Source: Phycisphaerales bacterium (GTDB taxonomy: Bacteria > Planctomycetota > Phycisphaerae > Sedimentisphaerales > Anaerobacaceae). From it: DNA of 47,149 nucleotides. The stretch's first letter is position 1. Each line of letters starts with the position of its first letter. Below are positions 505-47,149 of the stretch, piece after piece. Location of the stretch: NCBI GenBank assembly GCA_030602885.1, contig JAUVYV010000028.1, forward strand, positions 1 to 47,149, written 5' to 3'. The translations under genes and the position numbers were made by a program. The notes below the pieces were generated by a model. It was given only the letters and a program-made list of their open reading frames with translations. It did not search any database and was not told where the DNA came from.

Positions 505-735
505 TCTTTATGCCCCTCTGCGCCTAACAAAAAATCTGAGTTAATCTGTGTTAATCTGCGTCCAAGAAAAAAACCTCTCTGTGGTCTCTGTGATCTCTGT
601 GGCTATAATCTATCTTTAATCCGTGATAATCCGTGTCAATCCGTGGTTCGAACCTTTTTTTGTTACTTCGTGTCTTTGTCCGCCCCCCAAGGTGAGTTAG
701 CGACGAGAGACCAGCGACCAGCGACTATTTTTTAC

Positions 736-764
736 TTGACATCTAACTTCCCATGTTGTATAAT
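736..764 (+). promoter_or_regulatory. Perfect sigma-70 consensus promoter of repeat copy A
   Basis: TTGACA (736-741), 17-bp spacer, TATAAT (759-764). This is an exact match to both consensus hexamers with optimal spacing, and the identical arrangement is kept in the second copy (28124-28152). Predicted start of transcription is near 771, giving a leader of about 48 nt to the short ORF at 819. Confidence 0.75.
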
Positions 765-818
765 ACCCACCTAACATATGAAAGCTTGATACTAAATTAC
801 AAACACAAGGATTTTGAG

Positions 819-950
819 ATGACCACGCATTTACAAGATGTTATATTTTGTTTCTCAGCCCTTAAACTTTTTCAAAAATCAGTGTTAATCTGTGTAAATC
901 TGTGTCTAAAAAACAAACCGCCTATATTGCCCAACTTAACTTGCTGGTAA
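819..950 (+). CDS. Short ORF of repeat copy A (43 aa), unknown
   Basis: Starts MTTHLQDV and continues through FSAL and LFQKSVLI before reading into micro-repeat sequence. An AAGGA ribosome-binding site (807-811) sits 7 nt before the ATG, and a perfect consensus promoter lies 48 nt farther up. The first ~30 codons are conserved with the ORF at 28208, which also has a good RBS; beyond that point the two copies diverge in reading frame and length. No domain is recognised. It may be a real repeated micropeptide or simply a relic of the repeat. Confidence 0.35.
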   Translation: MTTHLQDVIFCFSALKLFQKSVLICVNLCLKNKPPILPNLTCW

Positions 951-1304
951 TTTACACCTTTTTATGCAAAACAAACCCAATTTTCACAAGGCCCACAATA
1001 AACCTAACTCTATACCTGAAGAGGATTTACGAAAAATATTCACCCCTCCGAACGGTGAAAAGCAAACCCAAAGCAAACCCAAAGCAAACCCAAACAAACC
1101 CAATCTACCCCCGTTTTCAGCCCGCTACGAAAAAACAAACCCAATTCAAACCCAAAACGAACCCAATTTTTCAAGCTCGGCCACAAGCCGAGCGCAGACC
1201 CTGCACCCATTGTGGTGCGGGGCCCAGTTTAACCCCCCCCCACTGCCCGCCCTACTCCCTAAAAACCGTGTTCCAATCCGCCTTTTCTTTCCGATATATA
1301 CCCT

Positions 1305-27695: not shown

Positions 27696-27858
27696 GCTTG
27701 CCCGCCTTTGGCGGGCCGGCGGAACCCCCGTGTAATCCCCCATCGCAGCCTCACCGAATACCCATCCATCTCCCTGCTCCCCATCCCTCCACATCAACCC
27801 GCAATACGCGATACGAACCCAATCCGCGTCAATCCCACTCATAAACAAACAAACGCAT

Positions 27859-27966
27859 TTCAGTCGGCTTTTTATAAAGAGCGAAGCTCTTGTGGACGAA
27901 GGCGAAGGGCCTGCGGACAAACCACGTTTGGAGCAAGGCCCGCGCCGAGTACACCTGCTGACTGAA
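27859..27966 (+). repeat. Two-hairpin element, copy d
   Basis: Same ends as copy c: TTCAGTCGGC (27859-27868) and GCTGACTGAA (27957-27966). Hairpin 1 is AAGAGC/GCTCTT (27877-27882/27886-27891, loop GAA); compared with copy c the second pair has switched from T-A to A-T. The linker GTGGACGAAGG starts at 27892. Hairpin 2 has outer stem GGGCCT/AGGCCC (27907-27912/27936-27941), a 5/5-nt internal loop and inner stem CAAAC/GTTTG (27918-27922/27926-27930). Confidence 0.7.
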
Positions 27967-28123
27967 TCTCTCTGTGCTCTCGGCGTCCTCGGCGGTAAAA
28001 AATCCGTGCAAATCCGTGTCAATCCGTGGTTCGAACCTTTTTTTGTTACTTAGTGTCTTTGCCCGCCCCCAACTTCGTTCAGCCGGTGATTAAAATCCGC
28101 GTTAATCCGTGGTTAAAATTATC

Positions 28124-28152
28124 TTGACATCTAACTTCCCATGTAGTATAAT
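28124..28152 (+). promoter_or_regulatory. Perfect sigma-70 consensus promoter of repeat copy B
   Basis: TTGACA (28124-28129), 17-bp spacer, TATAAT (28147-28152). It is identical in layout to 736-764, with one base changed in the spacer. Transcription would begin near 28159, 49 nt before the ORF. Confidence 0.75.
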
Positions 28153-28207: not shown

Positions 28208-28522
28208 ATGACCACCCATTTACAAGATGTTACCTTTTATTTCTCAGCCCTTGAACTTTTTCAGAAATCAGTGTTAATCAGTGTGAATCCGTGTCTAAAC
28301 CTCTTCTGTCTCGCGACTTACAACTCTACAACTGTAAAGAACTCTCTACAAATCGACCTTTTTATGCAAAACGAACCCAATTTTCACAAGGCCCACAATG
28401 AACTTAACTCTATACCTGAAAAGGAATTACGAGAATTTTATACCCCTTCGAACGGTGAAAAACGAACCCAAAACGAACCCAATTTCCGAAAACCCCAAAA
28501 TGAACCTAACCCTATACAATAA
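28208..28522 (+). CDS. Short repeat-encoded ORF of copy B (104 aa), unknown
   Basis: ATG 28208 follows a strong GGAGGG site (28195-28200, 7-nt spacing) and a perfect consensus promoter. The first ~30 codons match the ORF at 819 (MTTHLQDV, FSAL, LFQKSVLI). The remainder reads through the tandem units as an Asn/Pro/Lys-rich peptide (QNEPNFHKAHNEL and so on) and looks like translated repeat DNA. Whether a protein is made is unclear; expression signals are unusually good for a non-gene. Confidence 0.35.
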   Translation: MTTHLQDVTFYFSALELFQKSVLISVNPCLNLFCLATYNSTTVKNSLQIDLFMQNEPNFHKAHNELNSIPEKELREFYTPSNGEKRTQNEPNFRKPQNEPNPIQ

Positions 28523-28718
28523 AAGAGATTACGAGAAAAATAGCCCCTTCGGCTGCAAAAAAACGAACCCAATTCAAACCCAAAACGAACCCAATTCAAA
28601 CCCAATTTCAGCAGACCCAAAAATACACCAAAATCCAGTAAAGTGGAAGTTTGTAAGTCCAAAAATGTGGAAACTGTAACACCTTGCAAAACCAGTGACT
28701 TACAAAAAGTTACGGCAA

Positions 28719-46648: not shown

Positions 46649-47149
46649 GGCGGTGCCGTTTCTATTATGTTACTCAGACTGACCGATACCCGCCCCGCCA
46701 CACGAATGGCGGGTAAATTTCGCGGGCACATGCTTCATTTTTTAGACGCTGATTTACCCCTGCCCGCCGGCCCGCCAAAAAGACGGGGGGCAAGCTGCGC
46801 TCTGAAATTGGGTTTGAATTGGGTTCGTTTTTTTGCGGCCCGAAGGTTATATATTTTACGTAATCCCTTTTCTTGTATGGAGTTAGGTTCATTTTGGGGT
46901 TTTCGGAAATTGGGTTCGTTTTGGGTTCGTTTTGGGTTCGTTTTTCACCGTTCGGAGGGGTGAATATTTTTCGTAAATCCTTTTCAGGTATAGAGTTAAG
47001 CTCATTGTGGGCCTTGTGAAAATTGGGTTCGTTTTGCATAAAAAGGTCGATTTGTAGAGAATTCTCGACAGATGTAGAGGGGCGAGAGAGGAGAAATCAA
47101 AGTGCAAAGTGTAAAATGCAAAATTGCGGAATCCCGACGGGGTCGGGAT
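46649..47149. other. Gene-free, repeat-filled right end
   Basis: After the carboxypeptidase stop there is GC-rich boilerplate with CCCGCC/GGCGGG words (46690-46795), then the inverted NEPN repeat tail, and at the extreme end a hairpin ATCCCGAC/GTCGGGAT (47131-47138/47142-47149, loop GGG). No gene is supported. Confidence 0.65.
46801..47060 (-). repeat. Repeated transcription unit (NEPN repeat), copy C, inverted
   Basis: Reverse complement of the tail part of copies A and B: it contains the same CGACCTTTTTATGCAAAACG start, the AATTTTCACAAGGCCCACAA segment, the decamer AAACGAACCC four or more times, and the second unit with TAAAATATATAACC. The promoter and ORF half is not present; homology fades beyond about 47060 into unrelated sequence, so this copy is 5'-truncated. 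Confidence 0.65.

Follow-up and report, generated by a model that had tools for sequence, protein, structure and literature searches.

Two copies of a dispersed promoter-and-tail unit as putative gene-less derivatives of a promoter-gene-tail element in Planctomycetota

What keeps an exact promoter in place in a repeat whose copies diverge elsewhere? The question is raised by a 47,149-nt window, corresponding to contig C33 of a 3.2-Mb host assembly in 128 contigs, in which two copies of a dispersed unit (A and B) carry a perfect sigma-70-type consensus and a third one (C) does not. A preliminary description of this DNA proposed that the unit is a small-RNA gene, a micropeptide gene or a non-autonomous mobile element. 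Its account of the parts is borne out (Table 1): the promoter is exact in both copies; the leader, given as 48-49 nt, measures about 48 nt from a putative start site at its conserved AAC (773), or 54-55 nt if the whole interval between -10 box and ATG is counted; the ribosome-binding site is good (AAGGA in copy A, GGAGG in copy B); the ORF starts MTTHLQDV...FSAL(K/E)LFQKSVLI in both copies (43 and 104 codons); and copy C has only the tail, with a junction reaching to about 47090. Among its three readings, the non-autonomous mobile element comes out best, its mobility being putative. We consider, with roughly even confidence, that copies A and B are gene-less derivatives of a bipartite, dispersed promoter-gene-tail element and that copy C is a lone tail.

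Table 1. Coordinates of the three copies in the window.
Feature	Position	Strand	Remarks
Copy A promoter, TTGACA-17-TATAAT	736..764	+	AAC at 745-747, invariant in 22 copies
Copy A leader	765..818	+	transcription probably starts in the region of the invariant AAC at 773-775; RBS AAGGA
Copy A short ORF, MTTHLQDV..., 43 aa	819..950	+	copies share the first ~20 codons only
Copy A tail, AACAAACCCAATTT unit	970..1166	+	second motif ~91 bp on, then motif copies every 10-11 bp
Copy B promoter	28124..28152	+	exact consensus
Copy B ORF, 104 aa	28208..28522	+	MTTHLQDV start happens to read into the tail
Copy B junction segment, CTCTACAACTGTAAAGAACTCTCTACAAATCG	28324..28355	+	precedes the tail; found in other genera too
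Copy B tail	28370..28605	+	two units of ~101 bp each, at 28370-28471 and 28472-28572, plus motif array
Copy C, tail only, two units	46808..47047	-	without promoter; CTCTAC...CTCTAC junction at 47048-47090

Perfect consensus promoters were initially thought to be rare, which does not hold in this order, where relatives carry about 5-43 each versus mostly 0-5 in controls. The host assembly contains 51 exact TTGACA-N15-19-TATAAT sequences versus 1 in the reversed control; in the window, 0.01 exact TTGACA-17-TATAAT is expected from dinucleotide shuffles and two are seen, those of copies A and B. The exceptional feature is not the exact consensus as such, it is that the hexamers stay fixed while the copies diverge elsewhere. 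When 22 copies gathered via homology of the ORF start, independently of the promoter, are compared, a single letter out of 264 deviates in the hexamers, versus 50/374 in the spacer (13%), 40/220 in the 10 nt located 5' of the promoter, 81/438 in the 20 nt located 3' of the -10 box (the flanks deviating by 18%), 146/733 in the remaining leader and 82/1320 in codons 1-20. Drawing 12 columns at random 20,000 times never gives a set as conserved as the hexamers, and the promoter is thus better conserved than the rest, as the preliminary description had supposed. The whole 5' block has the layout TTGACA-N3-AAC-N11-TATAAT-N8-AAC, and its two fixed AAC triplets are found again with the same spacing in other genera. 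The second triplet sits at the expected transcript start, and the first, unexplained by sigma-70 recognition, may be an operator mark.

Used as a query, copy A matches 60 places in the host genome. The family spacer with its AAC is carried by 32 of the 51 exact promoters which, together with L068 (GTGACA), brings the genome-wide count to 33 family promoters. Among these, 22 are followed by an HLQDV-type ORF, L033 (contig C17) by an intact gene and the others by other sequence or a contig end, and six more HLQDV copies are promoter-less (five with a different 5' block, one cut by a contig end). That MTTHLQDV... could be the conserved product of a micropeptide gene is suggested by the roughly 20 first codons common to 28 host copies, by the good ribosome-binding site and by a crude dN/dS of about 0.4. 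However, the short ORFs range from 23 to 107 aa, their frames are alignable over about the first 20 codons and then diverge, and no frame conserved through to the stop is found in the copies compared. Changes in host copies are distributed 31/12/26 by codon position (crude synonymous/non-synonymous 26/43), and the sequence located 3' of the ATG is unrelated in other host copies and in other genera, which are without the peptide. Given these lengths and the unrelated sequences, a peptide function is unlikely, and the micropeptide gene can be practically set aside.

The tail, which makes up the other half, spans about 101 bp of DNA between two AAC(A/G)AACCCAAT motifs and is followed by further, phased copies of the motif. 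In this tail unit, AACAAACCCAATTT comes first, followed by two inner motifs resembling AAATGAACGTAAC and ACAAGGATTACGAAAA, in this order, and lastly by AAAACAAACCCAA. In a set of 68 dissimilar units preselected for 98-105 bp, 67 are 100-103 bp long, and the spacing of successive motifs, to which no length preselection was applied, is 10, 11, 21 or 89-92 bp. Tail units reach 149 per genome, an upper estimate as some hits overlap, and reversed controls give 0; many tails lack a promoter, such as copy C and those of genomes G015 and G050. A protein-coding tail is rejected, since unit lengths are not multiples of 3, in-frame stops are present and the AACAAACCC motif is open in all three frames. 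Dissimilar tail units yield no consensus RNA fold and the Rfam search returns tRNAs only, without any match for the unit, so that a structured form of the small-RNA gene initially proposed is not supported. As the tail has neither a consensus fold nor a preserved frame, the 'NEPN/NKPN' ORFs are to be regarded as by-products.

The unit is bipartite, the tail being its invariant second half. In the host genome, a same-strand tail lies within 800 nt of 27 of the 33 family promoters, the other six being cut by contig ends. The homologous genome records are from uncultured Planctomycetota (Phycisphaerae, Sedimentisphaerales), within which the element is spread over one family, and in other genera (11 other genomes of this family) 21 of 26 promoter loci have such a tail; four of the remaining five are cut by contig ends and the last one, L116, has an intact gene with the tail 178 nt past its stop. 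An antisense tail never follows a family promoter, be it at these 26 loci or at the 33 of the host. Promoter and tail are paired in 12 genera, in all copies that are neither cut by a contig end nor carrying an intact gene.

Between promoter and tail, intact elements have one conserved ORF of about 181-202 aa, the NALKHGL protein (consensus MATxAQxxANRLNAxKSTGPRTxxGKAxxSQNAxKHGLxA...MYERRIEHSLYKTxLELQRL), which starts downstream of the promoter at an ATG preceded by a GGAGG-type ribosome-binding site. The gene lies upstream of a tail in L033 and L131 of the host and in many relatives, the tail motif beginning as close as 8 nt past the stop codon. The same promoter, gene and tail are found together in several genera (L132, L135, L144, L147, L151), the promoter matching at 12/12 hexamer letters before the gene in L132, L135, L142, L144 and L151 and other gene copies having different 5' blocks; in L152, from another family, the gene also stands between promoter and tail, and its promoter matches less well. 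In L136, L138, L139 and L156, mainly in genus g16, another promoter-like block, TTGACTTTTCCTCCAAAATCTGTTAAAATACCCCCCAG, lies upstream of the gene. In the GC-rich genera of L148, L150 and L154, the tail unit, still 101 bp, is contained in the 3' end of the gene or directly follows it, and the ORF may thus read into the tail and be longer. Even in distant Planctomycetales homologues of about 30% identity, AAACGAACCCATTT is still beside the stop codon. The gene is present in 66 of 148 relatives, in at most 21 copies, and evolves under purifying selection (dN/dS 0.12-0.32; 0.12 for the within-genome paralogues L131/L132).

The protein has no match in Pfam, NCBIfam, PHROGs, PADLOC or PDB sequences, apart from one stray weak Pfam hit in 1 of 39 members, and neither Y1_Tnp nor any other Pfam family matches convincingly. 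Its AlphaFold2 model is helical and of moderate confidence (pLDDT 71), and the fold search retrieves unspecific helical matches only, without any nuclease or transposase fold. A defence system, considered for this protein, is rejected as PADLOC gives no match, and so is a viral origin, no relative being confirmed among viral contigs. No paper with the NALKHGL motif was found in a literature search. Across genomes, tails go with the gene: in the family, they are present in 51 of 54 genomes having the gene versus 17 of 35 without it (P=9e-7, phylogeny uncorrected), and outside the family in 7 of 12 versus 4 of 47 (P=5e-4, likewise uncorrected). About 15 genomes, many of them incomplete, have at least 5 tails with the gene undetected.

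In most copies the gene is lost and the middle filled by other repeats. A second dispersed repeat with inverted ends, TTCAGTCGGCT...CTGCTGACTGAAT, which looks MITE-like, lies at 392-505 and 27858-27970 of the window and also 3' of the family promoters of L041, L043 and L060. AATC(C/T)GTGTTAATC(C/T)GTGGTTAA and CTTCGTGTCTTTGTGGTGAA repeats are found at 530-660, 879-909 and 28000-28110 and upstream of the promoters in L101-L128; in several genera they stand immediately 5' of most family promoters, they recur within the unit, and they could possibly be recombination seams. Small repeats in the leader (CTCGTCTCGGCGAAGGCCGAAGCCGTAGCCGGG in L031, L035, L048, L054, L061-L063, L065 and L067; CTTGTGCCCGCGAAGGCGGGTA in L045 and L052) leave promoter and ribosome-binding site untouched. 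A GC-rich hairpin, CCCCGGCCCTACGAGGCCGGGG, followed by CATAAAAAACACCGCGTGCA, is common to three derivatives, 3' of the promoter (L053, L056, L058), and is perhaps a terminator. Finally, an alternative 5' block, GGGCGAATTTTCGCACCAAACGCGCAACTC...GGGGGGCGCTTTAGCCCCC...AAGCG, without any match in Rfam, stands in for the promoter in five derivatives (L061, L062, L063, L065, L067) and in one intact gene (L131, the gene copy on C63). Since some copies, one intact gene among them, have exchanged their 5' block, the promoter block is not strictly required.

With a textbook promoter at one end, a 101-bp tail and a conserved gene in between, the element looks like one of the REP or MITE type whose partner protein is new, and its best reading is that of a REP/MITE-like system in which non-autonomous copies keep promoter and tail, the NALKHGL protein being the candidate partner. 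The promoter would supply this protein in intact copies, and the protein would recognise the motif array of the tail, probably contacting it as DNA along a single face of the helix. Dispersal of tail-bearing copies would then take place in trans, in the way that partner transposases spread REP/REPIN and MITE sequences. In gene-less copies, the promoter would still be selected, being kept exact by transcription through the unit or by exchange with intact copies; its exactness would fit selection for transcription, repeated renewal from intact copies or an involvement of the block in dispersal. Between the ends of copy A, no terminal inverted repeat is found, the best inverted match being 7 nt. 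The ends of the element are uncertain, and the contigs of G015 and G050, two species of one genus, barely align and are too diverged for empty sites or target duplications to be compared.

Other explanations have to be weighed against this reading. The copies could be passive relics of a multi-copy gene family made up of promoter, NALKHGL gene and 3' region, decaying and shuffled by recombination between intergenic repeats, without present function or mobility. The mosaic middles, the swapped 5' modules, the nested small repeats and the truncated gene starts of L103, L106, L122, L125 and L129 are what such relics would look like, but decay would not hold the hexamers at 0.4% deviation versus 13-18% in their neighbours, every testable copy in the 12 genera has kept its pairing, and tails far exceed genes in number; we therefore regard this explanation as rather unlikely. 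In an RNA role, the promoter would drive an A/C-rich, unstructured transcript whose end is the tail, and this RNA would regulate mRNAs or the NALKHGL protein or serve as a decoy for them. Such a role would account for the conserved promoter and for the tail being on the transcribed strand wherever this can be tested. It is nevertheless improbable, as the tail belongs to no Rfam family and is without consensus fold, as the 10/11/21-bp motif phasing suits DNA better and as so many tails are promoter-less.

Two further possibilities have little probability. The 5' block could be a mobile promoter that spreads by giving promoters to host genes downstream, and identical promoters are indeed found before unrelated sequences; however, in crude ORF calls, the downstream host ORF is co-directional in 11 of 25 host-genome cases and opposite in 14 of 25, units stand mostly behind co-directional genes (22 versus 6), and the tail always goes with the promoter. 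Alternatively, an ordinary Y1/HUH transposase (RAYT), and not NALKHGL, could spread the tails as REPs, since Y1_Tnp genes are present in 129 of 148 genomes. Y1_Tnp is, however, equally common where tails are absent (in the family, 9 of 12 genomes without it and 59 of 77 with it have tails), it is undetected in six tail-rich genomes (G001, G011, G019, G039, G064, G081), and the intact element bears NALKHGL, not Y1.

How, then, does the element compare with known systems? Like MITEs, it comes in gene-less derivatives that retain the ends of a longer element: intact promoter-gene-tail forms share the 5' and 3' blocks, their autonomy being only putative. Unlike in MITEs, neither terminal inverted repeats nor a transposase relative are found. 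Correia elements are promoter-carrying MITEs with inverted repeats, and share a carried promoter with the present unit. Putative mobile promoters are near-identical promoters before unrelated sequences; here, by contrast, the promoter is always coupled to a 3' tail and, by the crude ORF calls, shows no apparent bias toward driving host genes. MITEs, Correia elements included, are the subject of a review (PMC10969869). With REP/REPIN sequences and their RAYT (TnpA-REP), the element shares a high-copy, dispersed short repeat, a cis-linked low-copy protein gene, non-autonomous copies far exceeding the genes and a repeat adjacent to the partner gene (PMC3116915, PMC8266576, PMC3733652). It differs by its tail of about 101 bp with direct motifs and no palindrome or consensus hairpin, by a protein without HUH/Y1 domain match and by a promoter as 5' block. 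REPtrons are defined by an HUH/Y1 tyrosine transposase and a palindromic 20-40-bp repeat with a GTAG/CGTC tag (PMC3116915, PMC8266576, PMC3733652), and the element has neither the HUH/Y1 link nor such a tagged palindrome. As HUH match, palindrome and terminal inverted repeats are all lacking, it is not classed as a REP or a MITE, and possibly forms a separate class, which would need proof of mobility. More tentatively, it could represent an undescribed class of mobile elements in Planctomycetota, with NALKHGL outside known transposase families, the 101-bp, helically phased direct-motif tail as its recognition site and the fixed sigma-70 promoter as its standard 5' part; the promoter being fixed even in gene-less copies, transcription may then be needed for dispersal. 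The literature search on repeats in Planctomycetes/Phycisphaerae retrieved, besides unrelated papers, only the one on GTAG/CGTC REPs.

If NALKHGL moves or maintains the tails, it would constitute a REP-like system without RAYT, in a phylum with few described dispersed repeats. If this is true, the NKPN/NEPN-type ORFs of these genomes would be explained as artefacts of the AACAAACCC repeat. The gene-less copies offer a natural test of why an exact promoter persists in a repeat encoding nothing.
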